Source: Oscillospiraceae bacterium
GTDB taxonomy: Bacteria > Bacillota > Clostridia > Oscillospirales > Oscillospiraceae
Reading direction: 5' to 3'
DNA length: 64,000 nt
NCBI GenBank assembly: GCA_902778665.1
Contig: CACYYN010000003.1
Coordinates: forward strand, 50,187-114,186
In this document: in pieces, positions 39,595 through 55,247 of the stretch
How positions within the stretch are numbered: position 1 is the stretch's first letter
Layout: each line of letters begins with the position of its first letter
The notes under the pieces: generated by a model
Told to the model about the DNA's origin: nothing
Seen by the model: only the letters and a program-made list of their open reading frames with translations
The model's database searches: none
Program-made: the position numbers and the translations under genes

Positions 39595-39658
39595 GTAACT
39601 AAAATATTTCTCAAGTAACCGACATATTACCCTCCTTGAAACTCAAATCTGCTAAAAT
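39595..39658 (+). promoter_or_regulatory. GTAACCG-type extended -10 promoter of the VVEAAP-repeat protein
   Basis: Extended -10 TGC-TAAAAT (TAAAAT at 39653-39658) with no recognisable -35. GTAACCG starts 38 bases upstream of the -10 (39615) and a variant GTAACTA starts 58 bases upstream (39595), each within TCAAGTAAC. Confidence 0.7.
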
Positions 39659-39697
39659 GCGGGCATAAAATAAAGATTCATGTCGGAGGAGATAGAG

Positions 39698-42600
39698 ATG
39701 AAAAATTATATCAACATGAAGAGATGGATAGCAGTGCTCTGCATCCTTGCGATGATTCATTCCTTTGCTCCCACGGCGATGGGGGATGAAAGTGCGGAAA
39801 ACCCGGTTGTGGAGGCAGCTCCGGTTGTGGAGGCAGCTCCGGTTGTGGAGGCAGCTCCGGTTGTGGAGGCAGCTCCGGTTGTAGAAGCAGCCCCGGTCGT
39901 GGAGGCAGCCCCGGTCGTGGAGGCAGCTCCGGTTGTGGAGGCAGCTCCCGTCGTAGAAGCAGCCCCGGTTGTGGAGGCAGCTCCGGTTGTGGAGGCAGCC
40001 CCGGTTGTGGAGGCAGCTCCGGTTGTGGAGGCAGCTCCCGTCGTAGAAGCAGCCCCGGTTGTGGAGGCAGCTCCAGTTGTGGAGGCCGCCCCGGTTGTGG
40101 AGGCCGCCCCGGTTGTGGAGGCAGCCCCGGTCGTGGAGGCAGCCCCGGTTGTGGAGGCAGCTCCCGTCGTAGAAGCAGCCCCGGTTGTGGAGGCAGCTCC
40201 CGTCGTAGAAGCAGCCCCGGTTGTGGAGGCAGCTCCGGTTGTGGAAGCAGCCCCGGTTGTGGAAGCAACTCCTGTCATTGAAACGCTCAGTGAGGTTGAG
40301 GAGCCTCAGCAGATAGAACAGGCTGAAGCGGAAGTTCCTGCAGCAGAAGTGTACATCGAAAAATCTGAAGAATCTGTATCTGATGAATCTGCAGCAGGGA
40401 ACCGTACAGCAGAAATCCTTGCCGGTGACCGTCTGATCACCGTAACAGGCAATCTTCCGGAAGGTGCAGTCATCCAGGCTGTTGAGATTCCGGCTGATGC
40501 AGCGGCAGATCTTTCCGGGAAAGATCCTCTCTTTGCCCCTCAATTCGCTTATGACATCCGCCTTGTTGTCGACGGTGAAGTCTGGCAGCCGGAAGAGCAT
40601 GGTGAAGAGGTTGAGGTTTCCATCCGTGATGCCGAAGGGCAGAACCTCTCCGACAGCGGGAACGCCTCCATTCTTCATGTCAAAACAGATCTTATGGACG
40701 AAAGCGGAGCCCTCTCCGAAGAGGCTGTAAAAGAAGCCTCTGATGCTGTTGCGGTAGGCACCGTGGAGACTGAATACCTTGATGCCCGGCAGACAACTGA
40801 CAGCCTTTCCTTCAATACAACCGGTTTCTCCGCCTTTATGGAAAATGTTGTGACCACGGTAAAAGACTTTTTCGGTCTCAAGGTGGAATATGACGAAAAT
40901 AAAGTCGAAGTAACGAAAGACGAAAGCAGACAGGAGATTACCCTTGCAAGCAAAGAAGGCATCGAGGGAGATGCCGGCGTAGTTGTAACGAATGAAGAAA
41001 ATACAGAAACCGCAACTGGCAGTATTCACGTTGCCAGCACCAATATCATCCTCAAACTGAAAAATCTGATCATCAATGCGGTCAACAATTCGGCTGTTTC
41101 TTTTGCCCAGCCTGAAGATACCGATTCCCGCAGCTCCTACAGCCTCATCATTGACGGGGAAGTTGACCTGAGCAGCAAAAAGAATGCCATTGAGGTCAAA
41201 AGCGGCGTTGATCTTGATATCTCCGGTGCCTCCGGCAAAGACGGTGAAGACAACCTTACCGCAACCGGTGTTGGTTCACATGGTGCCGCCATTGGCTTCT
41301 TTGATAAATCAAATGATGCCGGCAACATTATCATTCATGATATTCACGCAGTTTCCGCAACCGGCGGCACGGGTGACGAAGGCGGCATTGCCATTGGTGG
41401 CGGGCGTCACTATGACGAGGCAAACGGCCATGTTGTCATTGAAAATGTTGGCTCTGTCAACGCAGTCAGCGGTGGCAAGGCAGCCGGTATCGGCAGTGGC
41501 TTCTGGCGTGGTACAGATGTTGTCATCAGCAATGTGGACGAGGTCTACGCTGTCGGCGGCAAAACCGCAGCAGCCATCGGTTCCTCCCGCAATGCCATAG
41601 AAGGGGATGAGGCCAACCCGCTGAATCCTGCCCTTGTAACCCGTATTCATATTACAGATTCCAATGTAACCGCCATCGGTGGTGAAAACGGTGCCGCCAT
41701 CGGTACCGGTGCATCCGATCGTGTCTATGCCGACTATTCCCGTGTCGATAAAAACAAAGCCACAGGCGAGCAGTTCCTGGGCTCCGATGTTGCTCTGCCC
41801 GAAACCAGCATTATCATAGACGGTAATTCCGTGGTTGAGGCATGGGGCGGCAAATACGCCTCTGCCATCGGCGGCGGCTACAAAGTCTACTCTCCCGATA
41901 TCACCATTGGCTCCGGCGCAGTGGTTACTGCTTATGCCGGTGCCAACGGTGGAGATACAGCCAAATCCTCCAGTGCTATCGGCTCCGGGGCAGACGGTAG
42001 CAGCATCTATTCCTCCAAAACAGCAGTCATTACCATTGAAGATGGTGCCGTTGTCAGAGGTTTTTCCAACGGCTTTGATCTGATTGAAGGTCAGTCCGAT
42101 GCCAAAAAGAGCGCTCTGAGCAATCGCTGGGCAATCGTCCGCGAGGCGGAAGACCATTCCGGTGCAGCAGTTCTCCAGGGGCGTTTTCTCAAGTCCGATC
42201 AGCTTAGCGAAACCGGGAAGGAAGAAGCCGGAGAAATGAGCTTCTTCGATGAAAAGGGCAACGATTTTAACCGTACCCTCACCTTCATCAGTCTTGCTGA
42301 TGGCAGTGAAGAGAGCGTCGTGATCCCCGCCGGATACACCTCCTTTGCTCTGAGTGTCAATCCCGGCAGTTACCAGATTCTTCTGGATGGACAGCCCCTC
42401 AGCTTCCTCGGCACTGAAGGCTGGCAGGCTCTTACTGCCGGCAATCCTTCTGGTAATGCGGTTCCGTATAAGGCCCAGGTGGTCTATGGCGATGAAACGG
42501 TCGATTCCGGTTCTTATGCCGACTATGTGCATGAATACAATCCTTACGGCAGCAAAAGTGATGCGGTGTCCCTTCACTATGCCTACAGTGCTCCGAGCGC

Positions 42601-43321
42601 AAACTTCAATGTGTCTTCCGGTGTCAACAGCCTTGATGCCATCGCTGTGCGTACGCATGCCCTCCCGTTCGGCACGGTGACTGTCCGTTACAGCACGGAA
42701 GACGGAACACTCCTTCGCGAAGACTATGTCAGTGAAAAAATTCTCCTTGGCAACGAATTCGATGTTGCTGAAGAATCCGGCGTTTCCATCGAAGGCTACG
42801 ATTACCTTCGCACAGACGGTGATCTCTCCGGCATCCTTAATCATAACCATGTCGTCACCGTTTACTACAATGCCCTTCCTTCCGCAGACCCCGAAGATAT
42901 TCCCTCTGAAGACCCCTCCGAGACCCCTGCTGAAGAGCCCTCCGAAGCCCCGGTTGAAGACCCTTCCGAGTTCCCAGCTGAAGACCCTTCCGAGACCCCG
43001 GCCGAAGAGTCTTCTGAAGTCCCCGCAAAGAAACCCGCTGAAATTTCGAATCTGAAACCCGCAGAAGTTCCTGCTGAGAAGCCGGCTGAAGTCCTCACTG
43101 AAGAGCCTGTTGAAGACAAAACAGAGGGTCTCGACGATATTCCTGCTGAAAATCCCGTAGATATTCCGGCTGCCGGAACTGTGGGTAATTCCGCTGAGAG
43201 AGTTGTAGAGGCACCTGCGGAAGTCCCCGCTGCCCAGCCTGAAAACTTCTTCCGGATAGATGACCATGCCACACCTCTTGCTGGCGCAATCGGAATCTGT
43301 GAAGGGGACTGCCTGAACTGA
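39698..43321 (+). CDS. Large secreted repeat protein with VVEAAP array and TPLAG/EGDCLN tail
   Basis: 1207 residues from [15 protein letters not shown], preceded by CGGAGGAG. A frame start 18 bases earlier would swallow that site. Order: signal peptide (to about residue 30); 26 tandem VVEAAP units (residues 37-192); a mixed domain; a beta-helix-like region with recurring GAAIG/AGIGSG turns (about 450-800); a MucBP-like domain ([18 protein letters not shown]); and Glu/Pro repeats of the SETPAEEP type. It ends [11 protein letters not shown] then EGDCLN. There is no LPXTG motif or C-terminal membrane segment. The tail is shared with the next gene. Probably a surface adhesin or matrix protein. 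Confidence 0.8.
39806..40273 (+). repeat. 26 tandem 18-bp repeats (VVEAAP)
   Basis: 468 bases of in-frame 18-mers of the form GTTGTGGAGGCAGCTCCG with synonymous changes (GTCGTAGAAGCAGCCCCG and others). The alternating pattern of variants implies duplication of multi-unit blocks. Likely length-variable. Confidence 0.97.
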
Positions 43322-43386
43322 TTGTTCACTTGTCAGACGTCATAAACGTTTCCGCCGCTGACGGAGGAGAGAGATATTTTTCGTAT

Positions 43387-43450
43387 GTAACCGAAAAATT
43401 TTTTGAGTAACCGTCAAATGACTGCTCATGCAACACATGTTTGCTAAAAT
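43387..43450 (+). promoter_or_regulatory. GTAACCG-type extended -10 promoter of the DPAPAAAAP-repeat protein
   Basis: Extended -10 TGC-TAAAAT (43445-43450). GTAACCG starts 38 (43407) and 58 (43387) bases upstream of the -10, the same geometry as at 39595-39658. Confidence 0.72.
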
Positions 43451-43483
43451 ACGTCCATAAAATCTATTGATCAGGAGGATAAT

Positions 43484-45928
43484 ATGAAAATGAAAATCAG
43501 AAGTACAGTCAAAAAGTGGATAGCCATGCTATGTGTCTTTGCCTTAGTCTTTTCCTTCGTCCCGTCTGCGTTTGCGGATGGTGAAAGCGAAAGTAACGAA
43601 GTCCCTGCCACAACAGAAGCTACCCAGACCCCACAGTCAGATTCTACCCCACCGTCAGATTCAGCTCCAGCAGCTGCACCTGATCCCGCACCCGCAGCAG
43701 CTGCACCTGATCCCGCACCCGCAGCAGCTGCACCTGATCCCGCACCCGCAGCAGCTGCACCTGATCCTGATCCCGCACCCGCAGCAGCTGCACCTGATCC
43801 TGCACCCGCAGCAGCTGCACCTGATCCTGCACCCGCAGCAGCTGCACCTGATCCTGCACCCGCAGCGAACACAGCACCTGCACAGGATGCAGCTCCCGCT
43901 CCCGCAGCGGATCCCGCACCGTCCGCTCCCACCCAGGAAGCTGCTTCAAATTCTGTAGCAGAACCTATCCAGGTATCTACTGTCGAGGAGTACCAGTCGC
44001 TTGATCCTTTGCCTACAGAGCCTGTTATCACCCAGACGGGAGAGACAATTGAAACAAAAACTGATACTATCGAGACAACAACACCTGTTTCTGAGACGGT
44101 AGCAGTGGAGCAGAAAACAGATACTGTAACAAATGAAGATGGCAGCACCACCGTCACTACCGAAACCACAACTACCACTACAACAGAAACCGAAACAACC
44201 ACAACAACGGAGACTACCACAACTACCACCGATACCTATGAGGTAAAATCCGAAGGTTCTTATGTTACAGATTCTGAAGAAGTTGCTGACTATATCGCAG
44301 CCCAGGAAAAAGAAAAGCAGAAAGAAATCAAAGCTGATGTAGAAGAAAAAGGCGGCTCATATGAGTACAATGTTGAAATAACAGATAAGCCTTCTACCGA
44401 GCATATAGTTGATGAAGAAACTTATGATACTCGTACCGACGCAGAGACTCGTGTTCAGAAACTGGAAGAAACAGCAAATGTAGATGATCAGAGCATCGTA
44501 ATTGTGCCTACAAAAACAGAAAAACAGAGACAGACTGATCTGACCACCCTGGTGGATGCTGCCACTGAGCTCGGCGGAACAATTAACGAGGATGTAACAA
44601 AAGTCGAGCAGGAGAGCACGGTCATCGAGGCAACTTTCGACTCCTTGGAAAAAGCGCAGGAGTTTCTTAACAAGGCATCAGAAGTATACAAGGATCAAAC
44701 ACTAGCAGACAAAGACAATATTACCGTGGAGGATCTAAAAGGAAAGCCGCAAAATGAAGAGGATAAAGGTTATACGTGTGAAATAACAGATTATGTTTTA
44801 GACACTAAAACGTGGACATATCATCAGACATTAACAATTACTATTACCGGCGCAGGCCTTGATGAAATAAAAGTAGATTTTCCTGAATATTCAATATCAG
44901 GTGTAGAACCAGGTGATGCATTTGAATTGACAGTTGTCATTATTGATAAAACAGAAACGGAAGATGAATATGTATTAGAAGACTATTCTTTAAAGCATGG
45001 AGGCCCCTTTTTTACTACCTATGCATCTTTATATGATGCAAGAGTAGAAGAGTATGGAGACGAGGTTGGCATAAAATATGGCGAAGTAGTAGATAGATCG
45101 GAAGATGGCAGATATGTGCGAATAAAGCCAAATTCTGTAGATGTGTATCTGGATCGCTATGGAAAAAACTTCATGGTTAACTGGGGCTCAGACAATTATA
45201 TGAAGTATTATTGTGAGCAAAATGGCCTAGATTATTACAGTTATAACCACGGTTTTGCCACTAGATCCGAATATGAAAAAGTAGCCAAGTCAATAGATGC
45301 AGAAAAAATGCTGGAATTTTATAATATAAAGTATGGAACAAACTATACAAATTATTACGATGCATTTCAGGCAAATTTATGGAATTCCTGGACGGAATAC
45401 TATGGAGAGAATGAAGATCCGGAAACCTTTTGGAAGGGAAAAGAGCAAACCAAATTATCAGATCTGGCAAAGGAAAACATCATGAAATATCAAAAGCTTG
45501 ATGGAGAAATAGATAATCTGTATATGTTAAATTCGTTTGGTTGGTCGGAGTATCTGGTTTTTAAAGCAGTTCGTAACTACAAAGCAAACCTTGAAATCGA
45601 TGATGTCAACTATAAAGTCGAGTATGATGAAATCAACCATACTTATGAGGTCGAGGTCGCAGGTCTCGGTACTTATACCGTAAAAGAAGAAGAAACCGAA
45701 ACCGAAGAGACCAAACTCACCGTGGTTGATGTAAAAACCGAAACCGTAGTCGAGAAGGAAACTGTTCCTCCCACTCCCGATCAGCCCGTCGTTCCGGTGA
45801 TTCCGAACATCCCCTTCTTCCCTGCAGAAATTGGCAACAACCCCCAGGGAGATCTCCTGGAGATCGATGACTTCATGACGCCTCTTGCCGGTTCCCTCAT
45901 CATGAACGAAGGCGACTGCATCAACTGA
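43484..45928 (+). CDS. Secreted repeat protein with DPAPAAAAP array and TPLAG/EGDCIN tail
   Basis: 814 residues. Signal peptide to about residue 28 (PSAFADG). Pro/Ala repeats with six full DPAPAAAAP units (residues 67-122). A Thr/Glu-rich stretch (about 185-255). An alpha-rich region follows, and then a domain of no family I recognise (about 400-710) rich in Tyr and Asn. A final Pro linker ends EIDDFMTPLAG then EGDCIN. Roughly 44690-45620 is much more AT-rich than its flanks (13 G/C in 60 at 45301-45360), suggesting a recently acquired module. RBS AGGAGGATAAT. It shares promoter layout and tail with the preceding gene. Surface role inferred. Confidence 0.75.
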   Translation: MKMKIRSTVKKWIAMLCVFALVFSFVPSAFADGESESNEVPATTEATQTPQSDSTPPSDSAPAAAPDPAPAAAAPDPAPAAAAPDPAPAAAAPDPDPAPAAAAPDPAPAAAAPDPAPAAAAPDPAPAANTAPAQDAAPAPAADPAPSAPTQEAASNSVAEPIQVSTVEEYQSLDPLPTEPVITQTGETIETKTDTIETTTPVSETVAVEQKTDTVTNEDGSTTVTTETTTTTTTETETTTTTETTTTTTDTYEVKSEGSYVTDSEEVADYIAAQEKEKQKEIKADVEEKGGSYEYNVEITDKPSTEHIVDEETYDTRTDAETRVQKLEETANVDDQSIVIVPTKTEKQRQTDLTTLVDAATELGGTINEDVTKVEQESTVIEATFDSLEKAQEFLNKASEVYKDQTLADKDNITVEDLKGKPQNEEDKGYTCEITDYVLDTKTWTYHQTLTITITGAGLDEIKVDFPEYSISGVEPGDAFELTVVIIDKTETEDEYVLEDYSLKHGGPFFTTYASLYDARVEEYGDEVGIKYGEVVDRSEDGRYVRIKPNSVDVYLDRYGKNFMVNWGSDNYMKYYCEQNGLDYYSYNHGFATRSEYEKVAKSIDAEKMLEFYNIKYGTNYTNYYDAFQANLWNSWTEYYGENEDPETFWKGKEQTKLSDLAKENIMKYQKLDGEIDNLYMLNSFGWSEYLVFKAVRNYKANLEIDDVNYKVEYDEINHTYEVEVAGLGTYTVKEEETETEETKLTVVDVKTETVVEKETVPPTPDQPVVPVIPNIPFFPAEIGNNPQGDLLEIDDFMTPLAGSLIMNEGDCIN
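43682..43849 (+). repeat. Tandem 27-bp repeats (DPAPAAAAP)
   Basis: Six near-identical 27-mers, interrupted once by an extra 6 bases (GATCCT) after the third, followed by a degenerate unit. Confidence 0.93.
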
Positions 45929-45987
45929 TTGATCCTATCTCGCGCTCCCTGCAAAATAAAATCTAAAAAAACGTAAAAATTTCTTAA

Positions 45988-46031
45988 GTAACCGTTAAGT
46001 AATACGGGCAGTAACCGCCATCTGCTATAAT
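45988..46031 (+). promoter_or_regulatory. GTAACCG-type extended -10 promoter of the orphan binding protein
   Basis: Extended -10 TGC-TATAAT (46026-46031). GTAACCG starts 38 (45988) and 15 (46011) bases upstream, and GTAATAC starts 27 bases upstream (45999). Confidence 0.72.
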
Positions 46032-46049
46032 TCAGCCATAAAACAAAAC

Positions 46050-46083
46050 CCGCTCCTGCGGGCTGACGAAAACGCAGGAGCGG
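46050..46083 (+). other. 5' leader hairpin of the orphan binding protein mRNA
   Basis: Perfect 11-bp stem CCGCTCCTGCG / CGCAGGAGCGG, loop of 12, beginning about 12 bases after the expected start point and ending just before AAAGGAG. There is no T tail, so it is more likely a stabilising 5' hairpin than a terminator. Confidence 0.7.
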
Positions 46084-46106
46084 AAAAAACAAAGGAGTAA
46101 AAGAAC

Positions 46107-48560
46107 ATGAAAAAAACAATATCCATCCTTTTAGCCCTTCTGATGATGTTCAGTCTCATGCCCTTTGCAATGGCTGATGACATCGCAGATCAGGACGCAG
46201 AAGACACCGTCATCCTTACCCCGTTGGAAATCGCTCTTACGGCACGTCCTGTCAGCAGCGAACCGACTCACATCACCATCGGCAACCCGACAAAGGTGAA
46301 AGGCAGCTTCTTCACCTCCTATTTCGGCAACAACACCAGCGATATCGATGTGCGCACCATGCTCCACGGTTACAGCCCTGTTGTGTGGGATAACCAGTTA
46401 CAGTTTATTGTTGATCCCATGGTAGCCGAGCGTGTTGACAAAACCACCGGCCCGAACGGCACCACCTTCACTGTCACCCTTGCCCGCGATCTTCTCTATA
46501 ATGACGGTGTCACCCCTGTCACTGCTCAGGATTATGTCTTTGCCTGGCTCCTCTCCTGCTGCCCCCAGATTGCAGAAATCGGTGCCAATGCGCCGAAAGT
46601 AGATGTCCTGGGTTATGAGGACTTCCATTCCGGAACCTCTCAGGTGCTCTCCGGTGTCCGCCTTCTCAGTGATCATGCATTCAGCGTTACTCTCGCTCCC
46701 GAGTTTGATCCCTACTTCTACGACTATTCCCGCATTGCTGTCAACCCCTGCCCCGTCAGCGTCATTGCCCCGGGCTGCACCGTGCGTGACAGCGGCATGG
46801 GAGCCTATATGGAAGGCGAATTCACCTCAGATCTTCTTCAGTCTACCATTCTTGATCCCGAAACCGGTTACTCTTCCCACCCTATGCTCACCTGCGGTCC
46901 CTACAGCCTTGTCTCCTATGATGCTGAAACCGGTGTGGTGGAGTTTGCTCTCAATCCTTATTATAAAGGCAACTGCGACGGCGTAAAACCCGTTATCGAT
47001 ACCGTTACTCTCGTCCCTGTCACAACGGAAAACATGATTTCCAAGCTGGAAAGCGGAGAAGTGGATGCCCTCAACAAGTGTGTTGATCAGAGTGTCATCA
47101 TGGCAGGCATGCAGCTTGCAGCCGGCGGCGATTTTGAAATGACCAACTATGCTCGTCTGGGTTATGGCTTCTGTGCCTTCAGCTGCGAGCAGGGTCCCCA
47201 GCAGTTCCCGGCTGTCCGTCAGGCTCTCAACTACGCCTTTGACAGTGACTCCTTCATCCGTGATTTCCTCGGCGGTTTCGGTCTCCCGGTTTATGGGTAT
47301 TACGGCATCGGCCAGTGGATGGTAGGTGCAGCCAACGGCTCCGCCCGTCCCGAAGATCTCACTGAAGAGGAAGAGGCGGCCTGGGATGAACTCTCCCTTG
47401 ATACCCTCAACACCTATCCTCTCGACCTTGACGAGGCCAACCGCCTCCTGGATGAAGATGGCTGGGTTCTCAACGAAAACGGTGAAGCCTATAACCCGGA
47501 AAACGATTCTCTCCGCTATAAACTGGTAGATGGCTCTCTTATGCCCCTGTCTCTGCGCTTTGCCAAGAGCCGGGATAACCCCTCCGCTGACATGGTCGTG
47601 GCTATGTATGCCGAAACCCTTCCCTCTATCGGTGCCCGCCTTGAGGTGGAAGAGGTCGACTTCAATGATCTCCTTGCCGACTACTACCGTGATAACGGCG
47701 AGCGTAGATATGACATGAACTTCATGGCCACCAACTTCGTCTCCACCTTTGATCCTTACCTGGTTTTCAGCGGCAGAAGCGATATGCAGGGCGCCGTCAA
47801 CACCAGCGGTATTGTGGATGAAGAGCTGGTCAACCGGGCTTTCGAAATGCGTTCCACCGAACCCGGTGATCTCCTCACCTTCGTTCAGCGCTGGATCTCC
47901 ATGCAGGAGCGCTATAATGAAATTCTCCCCACCATGCCCATCTACTCCAACGTCTACTTCGATTTTCATACCGACTGGCTCCAAAATTATTACCCCAATG
48001 CCGAATACAGCTGGCCCGTCGCCCTCCTCTACGCATTCTACGGTGAGCCGCCTGTGGAAGCAGAGCCCGCAGCCGAAGAGATCTCTCCCGATGCTTTTGA
48101 TATCGATTTTGATGAAGCAGCAACCCTCACCTATGCCTCTCCTGCTGTCCCTGAATCCGTCGCAGAAGAGGCTGCAGCACCGGCACAGACAGCTGACCCT
48201 GTCTCGCAGGATGCCCCTCTCAGTGGGCACATCACCCTCAGCATCAATCCTACCCGGTCTCCGAAAAACGGCGTTGCCTATCAGCCCGGCGAAGTGATTA
48301 CCTTCCTCATCCATGTGCTGAATGACAGCAGCGTGAATCTCTGGAACCTCTCCCTTGATGAGTCCCTGACCGGAACACAGCCTTTCCGCAGCAGGCTCAA
48401 TCACGGTGGCAGCACAGATGCTCTTGTGGGATACCGTGTTACGGAAGAGGATGCACAGCGTGGTTTTGTTCAGATGGACGTCACCGCCGTTGCTGAAGAT
48501 GCCCATGGCGTTGCTGCTGATATCTCCCCTGTCTCCGTCACACTCCCCTGCCAGGGATAA
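46107..48560 (+). CDS. Family 5 solute-binding protein with C-terminal extension
   Basis: 817 residues, longer than the usual 500-600. A signal peptide ends AMADD with no lipobox cysteine. The SBP_bac_5 (OppA/DppA-like) fold follows: FTVTLARDLLYNDGVTPVTA, DYVFAWLLSCCPQ, LTCGPYSLVSYDAETG, ALNPYYKG, QALNYAFDSDSFIRDFLGG. About residues 650-710 are an acidic linker, and the last 100 residues form a beta-sandwich domain (ITLSINPTRSP ... YQPGEVITFLIHVLNDSSVN) like those used in cell-wall proteins. No permease or ATPase genes are nearby, so it is an orphan. Peptide binding is the family expectation; a surface-displayed receptor or scavenger is possible. Confidence 0.85.
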   Translation: MKKTISILLALLMMFSLMPFAMADDIADQDAEDTVILTPLEIALTARPVSSEPTHITIGNPTKVKGSFFTSYFGNNTSDIDVRTMLHGYSPVVWDNQLQFIVDPMVAERVDKTTGPNGTTFTVTLARDLLYNDGVTPVTAQDYVFAWLLSCCPQIAEIGANAPKVDVLGYEDFHSGTSQVLSGVRLLSDHAFSVTLAPEFDPYFYDYSRIAVNPCPVSVIAPGCTVRDSGMGAYMEGEFTSDLLQSTILDPETGYSSHPMLTCGPYSLVSYDAETGVVEFALNPYYKGNCDGVKPVIDTVTLVPVTTENMISKLESGEVDALNKCVDQSVIMAGMQLAAGGDFEMTNYARLGYGFCAFSCEQGPQQFPAVRQALNYAFDSDSFIRDFLGGFGLPVYGYYGIGQWMVGAANGSARPEDLTEEEEAAWDELSLDTLNTYPLDLDEANRLLDEDGWVLNENGEAYNPENDSLRYKLVDGSLMPLSLRFAKSRDNPSADMVVAMYAETLPSIGARLEVEEVDFNDLLADYYRDNGERRYDMNFMATNFVSTFDPYLVFSGRSDMQGAVNTSGIVDEELVNRAFEMRSTEPGDLLTFVQRWISMQERYNEILPTMPIYSNVYFDFHTDWLQNYYPNAEYSWPVALLYAFYGEPPVEAEPAAEEISPDAFDIDFDEAATLTYASPAVPESVAEEAAAPAQTADPVSQDAPLSGHITLSINPTRSPKNGVAYQPGEVITFLIHVLNDSSVNLWNLSLDESLTGTQPFRSRLNHGGSTDALVGYRVTEEDAQRGFVQMDVTAVAEDAHGVAADISPVSVTLPCQG

Positions 48561-48584
48561 AGATCAGCGATACGCTTTCCAACA

Positions 48585-48620: not shown

Positions 48621-48622
48621 TT

Positions 48623-48654
48623 CGGCCCCGGGCTTTGCTCGCGGGCCGTTTTTT
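48623..48654 (+). terminator. Terminator after the orphan binding protein gene
   Basis: GC-rich stem CGGCCC / GGGCCG with a loop of about 14 that may pair further, then six T residues. Confidence 0.85.
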
Positions 48655-48765
48655 CATACTGGAATTCTTGATTTCCCCATTGCCACCGTCTCCTGATTTG
48701 TGTATAATATTTAATGAAGCAATAGATTTAAAGGGGGCCAGGGGATCGTTTCTTGTGACAGCTTC

Positions 48766-48877
48766 TCTCCCTATACCCTGTCTCTTATTCACAAGTCTCT
48801 CCTGCGCCCGCAGGCGCATACCCCTATTCCCTACTCCCTATACCCTATACCCTATGATCTACTCCCTATTCCCTATC
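48766..48877. repeat. Hairpin plus heptamer repeat patch upstream of the HPt gene
   Basis: Contains the palindrome TGCGCCCGCAGGCGCA seen also at 31.1 kb, then about seven heptamer units (ATTCCCT, ACTCCCT, ATACCCT, ATACCCT). The 48561-48892 gap holds only this, the previous patch and the terminator. Confidence 0.9.
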
Positions 48878-48892
48878 AGAAAGGAGCTCCCC

Positions 48893-49267
48893 ATGACAAT
48901 TGACCAGCTCACCGCCTACGGTGCCGATACAAAAAAAGCTCTTGTCCGGTGCATGAATATGCCGGATTTGTATCTCCGTCTCGTCGGCATGATGGCGCAG
49001 GACGAGCATCTTGCCAAACTGCGTTCCGCGCTCGACGCACGTGACATCAACATGGCCTTTGAAGAGGCCCACGCTCTGAAGGGTGTTCTTGCAAACCTGG
49101 AGCTGACACCTGTTCTCACCCCTGTCTCCGAAATTACGGAACTTCTCCGTCCTCGGGGCGGTGTTTTGCCTGCCCTCACGCCGGAGGACGAGCAGAATAT
49201 TCTGACCCGTCTTCTCCCGGAGGCCGAGCGGGCAATGGCAGGGCTTCTTGCCCTGATCAACGGATGA
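48893..49267 (+). CDS. Stand-alone HPt (histidine phosphotransfer) protein
   Basis: A 124-residue all-alpha protein with the HPt motif FEEAHALKGVLANLELTPL; the phosphorylatable His is residue 60. Such proteins relay phosphoryl groups from hybrid histidine kinases to response regulators. No kinase or receiver protein is in the window, so its partners are elsewhere. The ATG at 48893 follows AAAGGAG; a much longer in-frame start at 48635 only translates repeats and terminator and was rejected. Confidence 0.85.
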   Translation: MTIDQLTAYGADTKKALVRCMNMPDLYLRLVGMMAQDEHLAKLRSALDARDINMAFEEAHALKGVLANLELTPVLTPVSEITELLRPRGGVLPALTPEDEQNILTRLLPEAERAMAGLLALING

Positions 49268-49310
49268 GAAATCCCTCATATAGGATAATCCGGAAAGGAG
49301 GGAATGCTGT

Positions 49311-50135
49311 ATGAGATTAAAAATCGGGCACCTCGGGCTTATGCTTGTCATCCTGATCTGTCTGTTTTTCTGTTTTGCCGTCTCAGCCTCGGCTGACAGT
49401 ACGTCGGCCATCTGGCCGCAGCAGACTGCGGTTACCAATAGTGGCGGTTCTCTTCTGGTGGATGCTTCCGGTGCACCCAACGGTTACTTTTTTGCAGCCG
49501 TCAGCTATAATACCAACCACCGCCTGAAGCTCCGTGTCATCAAAGACGGCACCACCTTCACCTACGACCTGAAAACCGATACCTCCTACGAGCTTTTCCC
49601 GCTCCAGCTGGGCACCGGTTATTACGAGATCCACCTCTATGAAAATGTCTCCGGCAAGAAGTATGCCATGGCTGGCTCCATTGGTCTCTATGTGACTATG
49701 GAAAATCAGGAGGCGGCATTCCTTGTGCCCAATCAGTATATCAGCTATACCAAAGCTTCTGAGGCGGTTGCCAAGGCGGATGAGATCTGTGCCGGCAAGG
49801 GCGAGAAGGATGCCTATGATGCGGTCTGCAAATTCATGTCCACTTCATTTGTGTATGACTTTATCAAGGCTGTCACCATCAAGCCCGGCATGCTCCCGGA
49901 TATTGACGGGTCTTACGCGAAAAAAATGGGCGTCTGCCAGGATCTCTCCGCCATCACCTGTGCCATGCTTCGCACCCAGGGCATTCCCGCCCGTATGATC
50001 ATCGGCTATGCCGACAGTCAGTACCATGCCTGGACTACCGCGAAGGTCAACGGCAAAGACATCTTCTTTGATCCCACCGCAGCCATCTCAGCCATCAGCT
50101 CTGTAAAAGAATATTCCATGGAACGCTATTACTGA
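49311..50135 (+). CDS. Secreted transglutaminase-like protein
   Basis: 274 residues with an N-terminal signal or anchor segment (residues 8-28). An N-terminal beta domain (about 30-135) precedes a transglutaminase-like cysteine-peptidase fold. The Cys is in KKMGVCQDLSAITCAMLRTQ, the His in YHAWTTAKVNG, and the Asp in IFFDPTAA, so the triad is complete. Family members cross-link or cleave proteins at the cell surface. RBS AAAGGAGG. Located between the HPt gene and the pilus-like operon. Confidence 0.88.
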   Translation: MRLKIGHLGLMLVILICLFFCFAVSASADSTSAIWPQQTAVTNSGGSLLVDASGAPNGYFFAAVSYNTNHRLKLRVIKDGTTFTYDLKTDTSYELFPLQLGTGYYEIHLYENVSGKKYAMAGSIGLYVTMENQEAAFLVPNQYISYTKASEAVAKADEICAGKGEKDAYDAVCKFMSTSFVYDFIKAVTIKPGMLPDIDGSYAKKMGVCQDLSAITCAMLRTQGIPARMIIGYADSQYHAWTTAKVNGKDIFFDPTAAISAISSVKEYSMERYY

Positions 50136-50169
50136 CTGTCGGGGAGATATGGTTCCCCTTTCATTTTAA

Positions 50170-50216
50170 GCGCGTGACAGAGCACCAAAATCGTGGCACT
50201 GTGTCGTCTCACGCGC
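50170..50216 (+). repeat. 47-nt dyad element, copy A
   Basis: Outer arms GCGCGTGA / TCACGCGC around 31 bases; identical to copy B except one base (G/A at the 29th inner position), within a 56-bp duplicated block (50164-50219). Confidence 0.85.
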
Positions 50217-50271
50217 AACCTGCAATATCACTTCATCACAACGGATGAAAAATGGTATCCTTCCTTTTTAA

Positions 50272-50318
50272 GCGCGTGACAGAGCACCAAAATCGTGGCA
50301 CTGTGTCATCTCACGCGC
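50272..50318 (+). repeat. 47-nt dyad element, copy B, upstream of pilC
   Basis: Second copy in the block 50266-50321, 102 bases after copy A. It ends 63 bases before the pilC ATG and is followed by GCAGTGCAC, as is copy C. Confidence 0.85.
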
Positions 50319-50381
50319 AACAAGCAGTGCACATATTGCGAGTATACATACATTATATAAGGAATATAAGGAGTGAATGTA

Positions 50382-51428
50382 ATGGCAAATAAAAAAACCG
50401 GCCTGTCCCCCGCCGAGCTCAGCATGTTCTGCGGTCAGGTTGCCCTGATTCTCGAAGCCGGTCTCCCGCTTTATGACGGCATGGAGACCCTCGCCGAGGG
50501 TGAGAAGAATGATTCCCATGCCGATATCTATCAGGCTGCCAGCCGTGGCGTCACGGAGACCGGCTCCCTTTATGATTCCCTAAAAAATGACGGCCGCTGG
50601 CCCGATTATCTTGTGGAAATGGTCGGCATCGGCGAGCGCTCCGGCCACCTGGAGAGTGTCATGCGTGGGCTCGAACGTTTCTACGCCCGGGAGGACCGTA
50701 TTCGCTCCTCCGTCACCTCTGCCATCACCTATCCCCTGGTGCTCGGTGCCATGCTGGTGGTCATTGTCTTCATCCTTCTCTGGAAGGTCATGCCCGTCTT
50801 CCGCCGCGTCCTGAACTCCATGGGTGTTGCCATGTCTGAGTCCGGCACGGCTCTCATGCGTCTCGGCACGGCCGTGGGCTGGATTGTCCTTGTGCTGGTG
50901 GCTCTCATTGTTCTGGCGGTGGTGGTGCTTGCCGTGCTAAGCCGCACCGGCAAACGCGAGCAGGTCCTTTCCTTCCTTTATCGTGTTTTCCCGCCTCTCG
51001 CGTCTCTTAACCGCAAGCTCTCCGCTTCTCGTGTTTCCGGTGTTCTGTCCATGATGCTCTCCTCCGGCTTCCCCATGGAGGATGCTCTTGATATGACCTC
51101 CAAAGTCCTCTCGGATAAAGAGGCTGCCTCCAAGGTTGCCTCCATCCGCGACGGGCTCAATAACGGCAAAACCTTTGCCGACTCCGTGGCCGACACCGGC
51201 CTCTTTGATGAGCTTCACAACAGCATGGTTCGCATGGGCTCTGCCACCGGCCATGAAGACCAGGTCCTCTCCAGGCTCTCCGGGCTCTATGAAGAGCAGG
51301 TGGAAGACGGCATCTCCCAGCTCATCTCCATCATCGAGCCTACCCTCGTGGCCCTTCTGGCCGTTGTCATCGGGGCGGTGCTCCTCTCCGTGATGCTGCC
51401 CATGGCCGGCATCCTCACCAGCCTCTGA
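50382..51428 (+). CDS. pilC: Type II secretion/type IV pilus inner-membrane protein PilC/GspF
   Basis: 348 residues with two T2SSF repeats: ELSMFCGQVALILEAGLPLY near the start, LVEMVGIGERSGHLESVMRG, then after two central membrane segments the second copy (SRVSGVLSMMLSSGFPMEDA, NSMVRMGSATGHEDQVLSRL) and a C-terminal membrane segment. It forms the platform on which pilin-like filaments are assembled. The ATG at 50382 is eight bases after AAGGAG; a GTG at 50373 overlaps that site and was rejected. First gene of a six-gene operon. Confidence 0.93.
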   Translation: MANKKTGLSPAELSMFCGQVALILEAGLPLYDGMETLAEGEKNDSHADIYQAASRGVTETGSLYDSLKNDGRWPDYLVEMVGIGERSGHLESVMRGLERFYAREDRIRSSVTSAITYPLVLGAMLVVIVFILLWKVMPVFRRVLNSMGVAMSESGTALMRLGTAVGWIVLVLVALIVLAVVVLAVLSRTGKREQVLSFLYRVFPPLASLNRKLSASRVSGVLSMMLSSGFPMEDALDMTSKVLSDKEAASKVASIRDGLNNGKTFADSVADTGLFDELHNSMVRMGSATGHEDQVLSRLSGLYEEQVEDGISQLISIIEPTLVALLAVVIGAVLLSVMLPMAGILTSL

Positions 51429-51443
51429 GCGGGAGGCATCCCC

Positions 51444-51752
51444 ATGAATCGGCGTGATATTATAAAACTCATCCTCCTTGCTGCGGTTCTTGTTTTGGCG
51501 GTTGTGCTTGTCAACCGGATTGACGTTGCTCAGAACACTGCCGAAACCGACCTCGTGCGTGACGCCGTGCGTAATGCTGCCGTCACCTGCTATGCCGTGG
51601 AGGGTGCTTATCCTGATTCGGTGGATTATCTCCGCGAGCATTACCATCTCGCCTATGACGAGACCCGTTATTTTGTCACCTATGAGGCCTTTGCCTCCAA
51701 CCGTATTCCTGACATCTATGTCACCGAGAGAGGGGCGGTGCTGCCTTCATGA
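51444..51752 (+). CDS. Small pseudopilin-like protein
   Basis: 102 residues: one N-terminal membrane helix (residues 7-24) and a short outer part with AVEGAYPDSVDYLREHYHL, reminiscent of the A.....G.YP.....L stretch in pseudopilins. No prepilin cleavage motif is visible. Its stop overlaps the next start by four bases (ATGA). Role in the pilus-like operon inferred from position. Confidence 0.7.
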   Translation: MNRRDIIKLILLAAVLVLAVVLVNRIDVAQNTAETDLVRDAVRNAAVTCYAVEGAYPDSVDYLREHYHLAYDETRYFVTYEAFASNRIPDIYVTERGAVLPS

Positions 51753-52258
51753 AAAAGAAGCTATCCTCCCATGCTGTCTCCGGCCTTTTTGTCTTTCTGC
51801 TGCTGGGCGTCTTTGCCGTGTTCTCCACGGTCATGGTTCTCCTCGGCGTCAAGGCCTATCGCGGTGCGGTGGAACGTACCGAGGCCCACAATGCCTCCCG
51901 CATCAGCTCTGCCTACATCCGCTCCATGCTCCGTGCCGATGATGAAGCCGGCGCCTTCTCCGTTGAGTCCTGTGAGGGCCTTGTGGGCGACCCCGGCTCG
52001 GAAGAAACCGTCTCCGTCAATTCCCTTACCCTCCGCAATGACTATGGTGAAGAATACATCACCCGCATCTATGTCTATGACGGCTCCCTGCGTGAGTGGT
52101 TCACCCGTGCCTCCGAGCCCTTCCATCCTGACCGGGGTGAAGTCGTCTGCCCGGCGGATGAGCTGACGGCAGAGCTCACCGGCTCCCTTCTCACCGTGCA
52201 CCTCCGCACCGGTGACCAAACGCAGGACGTTCTCCTCTCTCTCCGCACGAAAGCCTGA
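51749..52258 (+). CDS. Pilus-operon membrane protein, DUF4860-like
   Basis: 169 residues with one N-terminal membrane segment (SGLFVFLLLGVFAVFSTVMV) and an outer beta-rich domain containing ITRIYVYDGSLREWF. It resembles DUF4860 proteins found beside pilC/pilT in clostridia, though I cannot confirm this. Overlaps the preceding gene by four bases and is followed after nine bases by the next pseudopilin. Confidence 0.65.
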   Translation: MKKKLSSHAVSGLFVFLLLGVFAVFSTVMVLLGVKAYRGAVERTEAHNASRISSAYIRSMLRADDEAGAFSVESCEGLVGDPGSEETVSVNSLTLRNDYGEEYITRIYVYDGSLREWFTRASEPFHPDRGEVVCPADELTAELTGSLLTVHLRTGDQTQDVLLSLRTKA

Positions 52259-52267
52259 GGTGATCCT

Positions 52268-52648
52268 ATGAAAAATCATTCTCACAGCAATGCCCTTCTG
52301 GTGGAGCTCCTCATCGTGGTGCTCTTCTTCATGTTGGCTTCCACGGTGCTTCTGCAGCTTTTCACAGCCGCCCGCACCCAGAGTCTCAGGGCCGAAGAGC
52401 TCTCCGAGGCCACCCACCTTGCCCAGAATCTCGCTGAAAGTTGTCAAGGGGACGGTTCTCTTGACAGCTTCCCGGTCTCTTCCGACGGCCGCATTTCCTT
52501 CCCCGGCTCCTCCCTCACCGCCTCTGTTGAGAGCACTTTGCAGCAGTCGGAGTCAGGCACCCTCACTTACTACACTGTTAACATCTATTCCGGGGATGAT
52601 CTCATCTACACCCTCCCCTCTGCACGCTATGAGGAGGTGGCCTCATGA
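52268..52648 (+). CDS. Pilin-like protein with class III N-terminal motif
   Basis: 126 residues. The N-terminus NALLVELLIVVLFFMLAST matches the pilin GFTLIELLIVV motif, including Glu at +5, but the residue before the expected cleavage point is Asn instead of Gly or Ala. This is followed by a pilin-type amphipathic helix (TAARTQSLRAEELSEATHLA). Overlaps the next gene by four bases. Likely a minor pilin or pseudopilin. Confidence 0.75.
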   Translation: MKNHSHSNALLVELLIVVLFFMLASTVLLQLFTAARTQSLRAEELSEATHLAQNLAESCQGDGSLDSFPVSSDGRISFPGSSLTASVESTLQQSESGTLTYYTVNIYSGDDLIYTLPSARYEEVAS

Positions 52649-53091
52649 ATCGGAAGAAATCCTTCATCACCCTCGGCCCCGGTGCCTCCTCTCTTATTCT
52701 CATCTTTGTGGTCCTGAGCCTTGCATCTCTCGGCATGCTCTCCCTCCTGACCGCCAGGAATGACTTTCGCCTTGCCGAGCGCAGCGCCTCCGTCACCCGG
52801 TCGGTCTACGCCCTCAATGTCCGGGCGGAAGAGCGCCGTGCCGAGCTGGATGCGCTTCTTCTCTCCTGCATCAAAGATGCATCCTCTGATGCTGAGGCGC
52901 TCTCCCTGTTGGAATCCTGCCTTCCTGAGGACGTCACCCTCGAAGATGACCTGCTCCTCTTCACCGTCGAGGATGATTCCCGTGTTCTTGACTGCGCCCT
53001 GCGCATTGATCCATTCAACACATCACAGCGTACCTCCTGGGTGCGTTATAATCTCACTTCAGAAACGGGGGATGACTCATGGGATTGGTAG
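52645..53091 (+). CDS. Pseudopilin-like membrane protein
   Basis: 148 residues with a hydrophobic N-terminal helix after GPGA (SSLILIFVVLSLASLGMLS), then a charged helix (RLAERSASVTRSVYALNVRA) and a small domain. It lacks the Glu at +5, like the GspK/ComGG type of minor component. Its end overlaps the pilT start by 13 bases. Confidence 0.68.
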   Translation: MNRKKSFITLGPGASSLILIFVVLSLASLGMLSLLTARNDFRLAERSASVTRSVYALNVRAEERRAELDALLLSCIKDASSDAEALSLLESCLPEDVTLEDDLLLFTVEDDSRVLDCALRIDPFNTSQRTSWVRYNLTSETGDDSWDW

Positions 53092-54131
53092 AGCTTCTTC
53101 GCAAAGCTGTTTCTCTCGGCGGTTCTGACATTTTCATCATTCCCGGCTCCGGGGTCATGGTAAAGGTCAATAACTCCATGCAGCCCCTGTCTGAGGGTAA
53201 ATTGATGCCCGCCGAAATTGAAGAACTGGTCCACGGCATCTATGACCTTGCCGATCGTGACTTTGACCATCTCATCCGGGACGGCGATGATGACTTTTCC
53301 TTTGCCATCAAAGATGTCAGCCGCTTCCGCTGCAATGCTTACAAACAGCGTGGCACGGTTGCAGCCATCTGCCGCATTGTCAATTTCGCCCTGCCGGATG
53401 CCTCCGCCATGCATATCCCGCCCCAGGTCATGGAGCTTGCCAACCTTCGCAGCGGCATGGTGCTTGTCACCGGCCCTGCGGGCAGCGGCAAGAGCACCAG
53501 CCTTGCCTGCATTGTAGATAAAATCAATTCCGAGCGCGAGGCTCACATTATCACCATTGAAGACCCCATTGAATATCTCCACCGCCATAAAAAGTCTCTG
53601 GTTTCCCAGCGCGAAGTTCCCAATGACGCTGCCACCTTCTCCCGCGCTCTCCGTGCGGCTTTAAGGCAGGCGCCTGACGTTGTCCTTCTCGGTGAAATGC
53701 GTGATCTTGACACCATCCGCACCGCCATCACAGCCGCTGAGACCGGCCATCTCCTCCTCTCCACCCTGCATACCATCGGGGCGGCCAAAACGGTCGATCG
53801 CATTGTGGACACCTTCCCTGCCGAGCAGCAGGCTCAGATTCGTGTCCAGCTCTCCATGGTGCTCAGGGCAGTGGTCTCTCAGCGTCTTGTCCCCACAAAA
53901 GATGGCGGCCGTGTCCCCGTTTTCGAGCTCATGACGGTCAACCCCGCCATCCAGAATATGATCCGTGACGGTCGCACCCACCAGATTGATAACGTCATCT
54001 TCGGCGGCAGCGACAAATCCATGATCTCCATGGATGCCGAGCTGCAGCGTCTCGTGCGTGAGGGCACCATCACCCGCGACATGGCCCTCCTCCACGCCGT
54101 CAACCCCGAAACCCTCGCGAAACGTATCTAA
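53079..54131 (+). CDS. pilT: PilT-type retraction ATPase
   Basis: 350-residue hexameric ATPase of the PilT/VirB11 superfamily. Walker A GPAGSGKSTSLACIVD is at about residue 132, the Asp box is IITIEDPIEYLHRHKKS, Walker B is VVLLGEMRDLDTIRTAITAA and the His box is LLLSTLHTIGAAKTVDR. Length and the missing N-terminal GspE domain point to PilT (retraction), not PilB (extension). No PilB, prepilin peptidase or PilM/N/O is in the window. It may be the sole motor of this compact system, or PilB may lie elsewhere. Confidence 0.93.
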   Translation: MGLVELLRKAVSLGGSDIFIIPGSGVMVKVNNSMQPLSEGKLMPAEIEELVHGIYDLADRDFDHLIRDGDDDFSFAIKDVSRFRCNAYKQRGTVAAICRIVNFALPDASAMHIPPQVMELANLRSGMVLVTGPAGSGKSTSLACIVDKINSEREAHIITIEDPIEYLHRHKKSLVSQREVPNDAATFSRALRAALRQAPDVVLLGEMRDLDTIRTAITAAETGHLLLSTLHTIGAAKTVDRIVDTFPAEQQAQIRVQLSMVLRAVVSQRLVPTKDGGRVPVFELMTVNPAIQNMIRDGRTHQIDNVIFGGSDKSMISMDAELQRLVREGTITRDMALLHAVNPETLAKRI

Positions 54132-54142
54132 GAGGTATAGTT

Positions 54143-54943
54143 ATGGAACTCGACAGAAACTATTTCAATTCAATCCGCCTCAACACCCGCCGCGGCAAGT
54201 TTTATGACATCGAAGCCGTCGATCGCCTCCTGGTCGATATCCGCTCCCGTGCCGACTCTATGAATCGTGAATATGCCGCAGCCTGTCAAAAGCTCGCCGA
54301 GGCTGTCCAGACGGCCGAATCTCTCCGTGAGGAGAATACCGAGCTCTTCATGAAGGGCCAGGCTCTCAGTCAGGAGGTCCTCGCCCTGCGTGACGAGCTC
54401 AAGGCCGCCCAGTCCGGCGAAGCCTTCGTCATTCCCGAAAATGACGATTCTTCCGTCCCTGCTGAATCAGAAACCCGGGAACCCCTTCCTTCTGCTGAAC
54501 TGCAAACAGAAAAGGCAGAAGGAGAAGACTCCTCGTCCTCCCCTATTCCCTATTCCCTATGCCCTACTCCCTCCACCGACGACCCCCTCATGCCTCCCGA
54601 ACTCGTGACATCTTCCGCACCTGCCGCAATTGAAAAGGAAGCAGACGACTACGTCATCTCTTCCTCCTCCCCCCGTGAAGAGGCAGATAAAATCCTCGCC
54701 GCCGCTTATGCTGAAGCGGCCGCTATCCGCAATTCAGCTCAGCAGCTTTGGGACAGCACTGTTTCCAGGCTTGATTCCGTCTTCTCCATGATTCGCGAAA
54801 TCAACACCTACTCCATTGAGAAAACCGATCGTATCCGTCAGGAGTTTCTCGATCAGATCCCGTCTGAAGAACCCACTCCCCCTGACCTTTCCGAAAAAAT
54901 CGGCCGTATCGCCGAGCAGCTCAGTGAGATTGAGGACGAGTAA
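54143..54943 (+). CDS. DivIVA-like coiled-coil protein
   Basis: 266 residues. The start MELDRNYFNSIRLNTRRGKF-YDIEAVDRLL resembles the DivIVA N-terminal hook and coil, with coiled coil to about residue 95. An acidic Ser/Pro linker (95-180) includes SSSSPIPYSLCPTPST, encoded by heptamer repeats. A second coiled coil (about 175-235: REEADKILAAAYAEAAAIRN) is typical of DivIVA/GpsB-family helices. Last gene of the pilus-like operon, 11 bases after pilT, so it may place the pilus machine at a pole or division site (inference). Confidence 0.7.
   Translation: MELDRNYFNSIRLNTRRGKFYDIEAVDRLLVDIRSRADSMNREYAAACQKLAEAVQTAESLREENTELFMKGQALSQEVLALRDELKAAQSGEAFVIPENDDSSVPAESETREPLPSAELQTEKAEGEDSSSSPIPYSLCPTPSTDDPLMPPELVTSSAPAAIEKEADDYVISSSSPREEADKILAAAYAEAAAIRNSAQQLWDSTVSRLDSVFSMIREINTYSIEKTDRIRQEFLDQIPSEEPTPPDLSEKIGRIAEQLSEIEDE
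54539..54572. repeat. Heptamer repeats inside the DivIVA-like gene
   Basis: Four in-frame units (ATTCCCT, ATTCCCT, ATGCCCT, ACTCCCT) encoding IPYSLCPTP; same family as in dnaE. Confidence 0.9.
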
Positions 54944-54975
54944 CCGCAGTTACCCCTTATACAGAATATTTTCTC

Positions 54976-55004
54976 TTGTGCCTGCCGGGTCCCGGCAGGC
55001 ACAA
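54976..55004 (+). terminator. Long palindrome ending the pilus-like operon
   Basis: 14-bp arms TTGTGCCTGCCGGG / CCCGGCAGGCACAA around a single T. A very stable hairpin but without a T tract, so termination is likely rather than certain. Confidence 0.65.
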
Positions 55005-55091
55005 TATCTTGTATTTGTTTTAAAAACCTTAAAAAATCTTGAAAAACCACGCCTTTTCCCCGAAAAAATTTCAGGCATTTGCAAAAAAGTG

Positions 55092-55120
55092 TTGAATTTT
55101 TATACACAAGGGTCTATAAT
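55092..55120 (+). promoter_or_regulatory. Promoter P1 in the 55-kb gap
   Basis: -35 TTGAAT (55092-55097), 17-base spacer, perfect -10 TATAAT (55115-55120). It points into a 480-base non-coding region before the ADLS protein copy 2. Confidence 0.7.
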
Positions 55121-55214
55121 GACCATAAGTTTACTGTTAACATAAAATGACTATACCCCGATTTACCGTTTATTCTGCGCCAGAGGGTTTGATCTTTTTC
55201 CCCAAAAAATTCAT

Positions 55215-55247
55215 GTAACCGCTGGTGTAACCGGTCCGTGTTATAAT
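55215..55247 (+). promoter_or_regulatory. Promoter P2, GTAACCG-type extended -10
   Basis: Extended -10 TGT-TATAAT (55242-55247) with GTAACCG starting 27 (55215) and 15 (55227) bases upstream, matching two of the three positions used at 45988-46031. P2 is flanked by a long inverted repeat (CCAGAGGGTTT at 55180 and AAACCCTCTCTGG at 55267). Confidence 0.65.

Follow-up and report, generated by a model that had tools for sequence, protein, structure and literature searches.

A stretch of 64,000 nucleotides from an Oscillospiraceae bacterium (GenBank assembly GCA_902778665.1, contig CACYYN010000003.1, positions 50,187 to 114,186 of the forward strand), referred to here as the window, carries four promoters, P1 to P4, in which heptameric repeats related to GTAACCG stand at fixed distances from an extended -10 element. 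The four promoters are probably targets of the regulator of the Streptomyces antibiotic regulatory protein (SARP) type encoded in the same window (38170..39390, + strand, 406 amino acids), which is predicted to activate the adjoining genes for secreted proteins coordinately. Protein architecture and box geometry both point to SARP membership and suggest that Clostridia have a SARP-type regulon of genes for secreted surface proteins.

All four promoters lie on the + strand, and distances are counted to the first base of the -10 hexamer. P1 consists of GTAACTA at 58 (39595..39601), GTAACCG at 38 (39615..39621), the degenerate repeats ATTACCC at 27 (39626..39632) and GAAACTC at 15 (39638..39644), and the extended -10 TGCTAAAAT (39650..39658; hexamer TAAAAT at 39653). 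P2 has GTAACCG at both 58 (43387..43393) and 38 (43407..43413), the degenerate repeats ATGACTG at 27 (43418..43424) and GCAACAC at 15 (43430..43436), and the same extended -10, TGCTAAAAT (43442..43450; hexamer TAAAAT at 43445). In P3, GTAACCG occurs at 38 (45988..45994) and at 15 (46011..46017), with the degenerate GTAATAC at 27 (45999..46005) between them and TGCTATAAT as the extended -10 (46023..46031; hexamer TATAAT at 46026), and P4 has GTAACCG at 27 (55215..55221) and 15 (55227..55233) before TGTTATAAT (55239..55247; hexamer TATAAT at 55242). The spacers are 5 in P4 and 4 and 5 in P3, the strong repeats in P1 and P2 are separated by 13, and the repeat steps are 12 in P4 and 11 in the upstream pair of P3. 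The gap of 8 bp between the 3' repeat and the -10 is exact in P3 and P4 and is found in P1 and P2 only by way of the degenerate repeats, and a -35 is not visible by eye at any of the four.

An earlier note on this DNA had reported the promoter coordinates and the distances 58/38 (P1 and P2), 38/27/15 (P3) and 27/15 (P4), all of which were re-measured as correct; seven of the nine elements that it called GTAACCG are exact, the exceptions being the 58 site of P1 (five of seven letters) and the 27 site of P3 (four of seven). The two sets of distances reduce to a single array class. When the matches of P1 and P2 to GTAACCG were added up at each of 72 offsets, the totals were 14/14 at 38, 12 at 58 and 8 at both 15 and 27, and at most 5 elsewhere. 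Because weak repeats at 15 and 27 are thus also present in P1 and P2, the four promoters are one class of arrays of two to four repeats with a common 15/27/38 register, extended to 58 in P1 and P2. P1, P2 and P3 also have CATAAAA after the -10, as would be expected if they were copies of one duplicated promoter whose common words reflect ancestry and no binding protein; this is very unlikely, because P4 lacks that similarity yet keeps the register, and because the general form of the box described below recurs elsewhere, with seven copies in genome G566, five in G373 (of the same genus) and seven in G327. The missing -35 and the shared word could also mean that an alternative sigma factor uses GTAACCG as its -35, an explanation that we consider extremely improbable because repeats in tandem that end 8 bp before a sigma-70-like -10, with further copies at 27, 38 and 58, disagree with the spacing of a -35.

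GTAACCG occurs 18 times in the window, where 3.1 occurrences are expected and none of 100 shuffles reaches 18. The combination TGnTAwAAT with GTAACCG at most 65 bases upstream occurs four times, whereas 200 shuffles average 0.005 such occurrences and never exceed 1. In the source assembly (2.73 Mb, 84% complete), GTAACCG-N5-30-TGNTAWAAT gave seven matches at five promoters and none in the reversed control; when the TG was omitted, there were 12 matches versus 4 in the control. In the genome-wide scan suggested in the earlier note, no further tandem stood out: the fifth promoter (C50) precedes a gene judged by eye to be HU-like and was left out of the count, the 12-bp tandem without a -10 showed no excess (26 matches versus 46 in the control), and the 20-bp pair without a -10 showed little (14 versus 9). 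In this assembly, we find only these four promoters of the class. The distance 38 was rejected as a diagnostic feature on account of C50 and of a GTAACCGCC...TGCTATAAT element that recurs in relatives at a distance of 38-39. Random distances between GTAACCG and the -10, which the same note had set against its own proposal, were borne out only in part: a single repeat at any of 26 distances is unspecific in the family (83 matches versus 44 in the reversed control), and this search word was rejected, as were the search without the TG and those without a -10, whereas the phased tandem with its -10 is specific (26 versus 1). Two GTAAC words 10 bp apart were also seen at 56949-56965, 5' of a giant secreted open reading frame (ORF) at 57107 with Listeria-Bacteroides repeats, with no -10 in the register of P1-P4.

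The regulator gene lies about 200 bp before the P1 array. In the model of its product (AlphaFold; pLDDT 85.6, pTM 0.59), an OmpR-type winged helix-turn-helix (wHTH) domain (residues ~15-110) is followed by a BTAD/TPR domain (~119-265) and a degenerate GGDEF-like domain (~287-401), and the Pfam matches are Trans_reg_C (2e-7), BTAD (8e-12) and GGDEF (4e-4, below its cut-off). The protein thus possesses the SARP architecture, an N-terminal OmpR-type wHTH and then a BTA domain. A 27-row profile of the regulator searched against the PDB matched AfsR with an E value of 5e-17, with EmbR and diguanylate cyclases among the other matches, and a Foldseek search with the model returned AfsR at 5e-10, the last ~120 residues matching GGDEF domains such as 6khu (2.7 Å over 118 columns). 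AfsR is the best match both by sequence and by fold. According to the available text of PMC10936776, AfsR contacts its repeats through R87, T88, S91, R92, R94 and K95 of the recognition helix. Based on a hidden Markov model alignment, the equivalents of R87, R92 and R94 are K80, R85 and R87, present in all 77 rows of the regulator alignment, and that of T88 is T81 in 49 of the 77, replaced by N in 19 and V in 9.

The box was followed into relatives through 79 loci around homologous regulators (the named loci, from the best 80 of 212 matches), three of which were dropped from the regulator alignment on account of in-frame stops. GTAACCG alone was rejected as the motif here, since the strict tandem is present in only 5 of the 79; the flanks were therefore scanned without a set word, a procedure that also returned poly-T and coding repeats, and then for pairs of TGTRAC. 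Such pairs numbered 20 at period 11 and three at period 12, with 0-3 at each other period from 6 to 59, and a -10-like hexamer of the form [TC]A...T stands exactly 10 bp after every one of the 20 period-11 pairs. Of the 79 loci, 17 contain exact-core pairs. A search of 300 family genomes for the GTAACCG tandem at period 12 only, with a -10 and up to three mismatches, gave 26 hits (two of them P3 and P4) in 18 genomes, the window's own included, and one control hit. All 18 are among the 90 genomes with a regulator match (p = 1e-10), and 17 are among the 61 with a match at E <= 1e-25; in G219, which belongs to the 18, the regulator match is weak and the two hits are nearly identical, with no ORF found for them. 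Five congeners of the source genome in this sample have neither the regulator nor the tandem box. The period-12 boxes (n=20) have the consensus AAAATGTAACCG.TTTTGTAACCG.C..ATG.TATA.T, partly selected because the set was largely gathered with the GTAACCG pattern, with the extended TG in 19; that of the period-11 boxes (n=48) is TGTGAC.....TGTGAC........G.TATA.T, with TG in 20. Relatives have TGTRAC, not GTAACCG, as the core of the box.

This general box was searched for in 384 genomes of the order as TGTRAC-N5-TGTRAC-N10-TATAMT, with at most one mismatch and at period 11 only, and 83 hits were obtained in 53 genomes, compared with six control hits; the source genome has no such box because its boxes have period 12. 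A profile of the 77 regulators matched in 83 genomes, in 69 of them near full length by a threshold of our choosing. The box is present in 31 of these 69 genomes and in 22 of the 315 others; conversely, a near-full-length regulator is encoded in 31 of the 53 box genomes versus 38 of the 331 without a box (p = 3e-13, phylogeny not corrected). Of the ten genomes with an exact box, eight have a near-full-length regulator, G514 has a regulator gene cut by a contig end, and G572 has a C-terminal match only. Furthermore, of the 61 boxes in regulator genomes (a count that includes G514), 17 from 10 genera are at most 10 kb away from the regulator gene, compared with an expectation of 0.5; 12 of these boxes are no more than 520 bp away, 10 of them divergent from it. 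The earlier inference of a helically phased activator, possibly the BTAD protein encoded at 38170, is consequently strengthened by the SARP architecture, the co-occurrence and the linkage.

The same co-occurrence and linkage bear on whether an OmpR-family response regulator such as WalR/YycF or PhoP, and not the SARP-type protein, reads the boxes. Regulators of the WalR/PhoP type also govern cell-surface genes, and the WalR/YycF consensus, which we take to be TGTWAH-N5-TGTWAH, has the same layout of 11-bp direct repeats, TGT-A-; a reader of this kind would also suit the 22 of 53 box genomes that have no near-full-length SARP-type match. Many boxes in several lineages, however, are TGTGAC, which TGTWAH disallows, the P4 box has period 12, and the boxes both adjoin and co-occur with a SARP-type gene. 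Of these points, the linkage of box and regulator gene speaks most strongly against readers of the WalR or PhoP type, which we regard as unlikely.

If the SARP-type protein is the reader, wHTH/BTAD N-terminal protomers would sit side by side on the GTAACCG heptamers along one face of the DNA. A dimer on the heptamer at 15, 8 bp from the -10, and on its neighbor 11-12 bases further upstream would cover the missing -35, the location at which the AfsR dimer engages sigma region 4 and the core of RNA polymerase, and the extended -10 could do the rest. The extra repeats at 38 and 58 in P1-P3 may recruit further protomers where the proximal repeats are weak. As a result, the secreted proteins encoded beside the regulator gene would be activated together, and related regulators in other Clostridia would use the box TGTRAC-N5/6-TGTRAC-N10 -10. 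The sign of regulation could differ from this proposal, with the SARP-type protein repressing from the boxes or acting both ways: the repeats cover the -35 region, box position alone cannot separate activation from repression, and many boxes are divergent beside the regulator gene, where autoregulation is common. In addition, TGTGAC repeats at L101 and L108 flank a TTGACT or TTGACG hexamer that is 17 bp from TATAAT. Such a role is nevertheless improbable for the window promoters, which have no visible -35, and AfsR activates from the same position, as described in the available portion of PMC10936776. The L101 and L108 sites themselves (L101:9732 and L108:9725), which are situated 3' of the regulator gene and have repeats 23 bp apart, may represent a different type of operator.

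Several observations weigh against control of these boxes by the SARP-type protein. Within the recognition helix, the equivalents of AfsR S91 and K95 are not conserved in the 77 rows, residue 84 being mostly Y or H and residue 88 variable. The strict GTAACCG tandem is confined to the flanks of the five named loci given above, and in 62 of the 79, the flanks examined contain no exact pair of TGTRAC with a period of 11 or 12. The period-11 peak is not independent evidence because TGTRAC was picked from the same 79 loci; the order search is independent. In that search, the 22 box genomes without a near-full-length regulator match exceed the six reversed-control hits, and 38 of the 69 regulator genomes, the window's own included, lack a period-11 box even with one mismatch allowed. 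Among 68 boxes from relatives, additional repeats do not accumulate at 38 or 58. The 12 nearest boxes are not independent either, six being from one genus and two from another, and the linkage p-value is therefore too small, the excess still spanning 10 genera. A last point concerns residue 81, which can be compared with the variable box base. In the named loci, N81 accompanies G in seven cases and T81 accompanies A in five and G in one, with four T81 ties; in the order genomes, the counts are T-A 17, N-G 4, T-G 2, N-A 1, ties 4 and other residues 2, with one regulator read for most genomes even where two matched (G354, G074) and two two-regulator genomes left out. The window protein has T81, and GTAAC words occur in its promoters. 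This correlation amounts to two residue changes and three box changes on a tree that itself includes the recognition-helix columns, so few that an independent-pairs test cannot reach significance, and the pairing of residue and base is suggestive only.

Targets in relatives were read as 39 box-gene pairs drawn from 43 boxes in 40 stretches (four without an ORF, two genes counted twice, and a few ORFs that may not be genes), of which 22 have a signal-peptide-like start by a simple hydrophobicity rule. Among 17 box-linked proteins, Pfam matches over the cut-off comprise VWA, the GBS104 pilus-tip domain, BspA leucine-rich repeats, the LPXTG anchor, SLH, Listeria-Bacteroides repeats and camelysin (Peptidase_M73), those below the cut-off comprise SpaA, thioester and a second camelysin match, and five proteins have no Pfam match. 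In NCBIfam, one camelysin-like protein exceeds the cut-off for a SipW-dependent signal peptide and has a BsaA match that falls short of it. A small cytoplasmic protein not assigned to any Pfam family makes up a second target class; its gene often lies near the regulator gene and in several cases under a box (L162:2151-2618, L142:1135-1554 and L115:14684-15127 are examples of the loci). The protein has ~140-160 amino acids in two similar beta-beta-alpha halves with an invariant W-Q-G, and it is encoded in many of the 79 regulator loci (54 ORF hits); no match was found in the window, no convincing family in Pfam and no fold match in the PDB (best E value 0.57). It is possibly a partner or effector of the regulator. 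A separate element, GTAACCGCC...CGTTGC or similar...TGnTATAAT at 38-39 bp, recurs in several genera (L017, L022, L025 and L030). It precedes a secreted gene resembling, by eye, D-Ala-D-Ala carboxypeptidase, is also found in genomes without a strong regulator match, and perhaps belongs to another regulon.

The C-terminal domain of the regulator is predicted by its model to have a GGDEF fold without the active site. The GG[DE]EF signature has been lost in the 77 rows, mostly in favor of an SxxQ[YF]-type sequence, and the window protein has SDNTY. In contrast to the 40 ordinary GGDEF domains of the same order used for comparison, in which RxxD occurs in 25 and an Arg at the further spacing in 9 (taken from a listing of genomes examined for GGDEF proteins and thus not a random sample), R347 and D350, aligned with the RxxD of diguanylate cyclases, are present in 77 of 77 rows, and R378, 31 residues further on, in 75. 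These residues are presumably those of the inhibitory site, which we name from the PleD numbering; the comparison is restricted to RxxD and the downstream R, the secondary-site Arg (R307 or R303) not being alignable. The apparent retention of the inhibitory site in a fold without an active site is the pattern that a receptor for cyclic di-GMP (c-di-GMP) would show, and control by c-di-GMP is a good reading of it. PelD and BcsE reportedly have a GGDEF-type fold without an active site that binds c-di-GMP at the inhibitory site. They serve exopolysaccharide systems, whereas here the GGDEF-like domain belongs to the same polypeptide as a DNA-binding SARP core, and its ligand is only predicted. At least one GGDEF protein is encoded in 21 of 21 regulator genomes versus 9 of 20 without the regulator (p = 5e-5, phylogeny not corrected), the former picked mostly for their boxes and the latter taken in listing order. 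With slightly less than even confidence, we suggest a c-di-GMP-gated SARP activator in Clostridia, in which the dead GGDEF domain would sense the ligand via its inhibitory site and direct expression of adhesins, pilus-tip proteins and SipW/BsaA-type matrix proteins through the TGTRAC-N5/6-TGTRAC-N10 -10 box. If true, this would be a transcriptional route from c-di-GMP to attachment, alongside riboswitches; in any case, the kept inhibitory-site residues make c-di-GMP a candidate signal for the regulator that is open to test.

In the parts of the literature available to us, SARP targets are described as having a 3' repeat 8 bp from the -10 and a repeat spacing of 11 or 22 bp, with a poor -35 at the AfsR target (PMC10936776), and as having heptameric direct repeats 4-15 nt apart in place of a good -35 (PMC10972967). 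The window promoters agree with this description in heptamer spacing (spacers of 4, 5 and 13) and, at P3 and P4, in the 8-bp gap, which is also kept by all 20 period-11 pairs of the named loci. The usual step of 11 bp is found in the upstream pair of P3 and in those 20 pairs, and P4 has a step of 12. AfsR of Streptomyces coelicolor is similar in its wHTH and BTA domains, its tandem repeats 8 bp from the -10 and its poor -35, as far as the available text of PMC10936776 goes. In contrast, AfsR possesses NOD and TPR domains where a degenerate GGDEF domain is found here, and activates antibiotic genes rather than genes for secreted surface proteins. The afs repeat is CGTT(T/C)ATCGNN, as given in the available part of PMC10972967, compared with TGTRAC here, and its period is 11, compared with 11-12 in the window. 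PimR, DnrI and ActII-ORF4 use three-heptamer arrays, as does P3 and, with the degenerate copies, P1 and P2; the PimR spacers are 4 nt, compared with 4-5 (and 13) here, the targets of all three are actinobacterial, and no GGDEF domain is mentioned for them in the available portion of that review (PMC10972967). EmbR of Mycobacterium tuberculosis shares a wHTH-BTA core followed by a C-terminal signal domain, which is FHA and not GGDEF-like. GSU1771 of Geobacter sulfurreducens is likewise a SARP-type, biofilm-linked protein from outside the actinobacteria; it has a receiver domain and no GGDEF-like domain, and the available text mentions no box (PMC10599522).

The 2024 review describes SARPs as "exclusively found in actinobacteria" and as activators of antibiotic clusters, in the part available to us (PMC10972967). 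The SARP-type genes reported here are in Clostridia, and that range was already contradicted by GSU1771, which is SARP-type in Geobacter (PMC10599522, available part). A full-text literature search, covering mostly titles and abstract openings, revealed no recognizable SARP-type box or SARP-GGDEF fusion in Clostridia, and the regulon thus adds to the SARPs a signal domain and a target class that this search did not show. Much the same SARP promoter layout stands beside SARP-type genes in clostridia, where the scanned targets include adhesion and biofilm-matrix-type proteins, and the box offers a means to predict surface regulons in clostridial genomes.

The earlier description of the genes downstream of P1-P4 (all on the + strand) as secreted agrees with their signal-peptide-like starts, recognized by rule for P3 and P4 and by eye for P1 and P2, the link being less sure for P4. 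The product of the gene under P1 (39698..43321) is a secreted protein that contains a long stretch of repeats and matches MucBP only weakly, under the Pfam cut-off; the ATG at 39698 is preferred over the listed ORF start at 39680 because GGAGGAG precedes it. The P2 gene (43484..45928) encodes a secreted protein of 814 amino acids without a Pfam match. The P1 and P2 products have like C-termini, ID-D--TPLAG------GDC-N, which could be a signal for surface retention or processing. Under P3, the gene at 46107..48560 encodes a secreted protein with an SBP_bac_5 domain and a weak C-terminal DUF7507 match below the cut-off. The gene probably under P4 (55605..56843), 357 bp from the promoter, encodes a secreted protein of 412 amino acids with no Pfam match; a related C-terminal stretch, IWEVDK...LSV-Y-, is found in the secreted product of 36462-38018, which directly precedes the regulator gene. 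An Rfam scan of the window at the gathering cut-off detected nothing beyond a purine riboswitch aptamer (RF00167; 26888-26985, - strand). Between P3 and P4, type IV pilus or secretion genes are located at 50373-54131, with T2SSF at 50373 and T2SSE at 53079.

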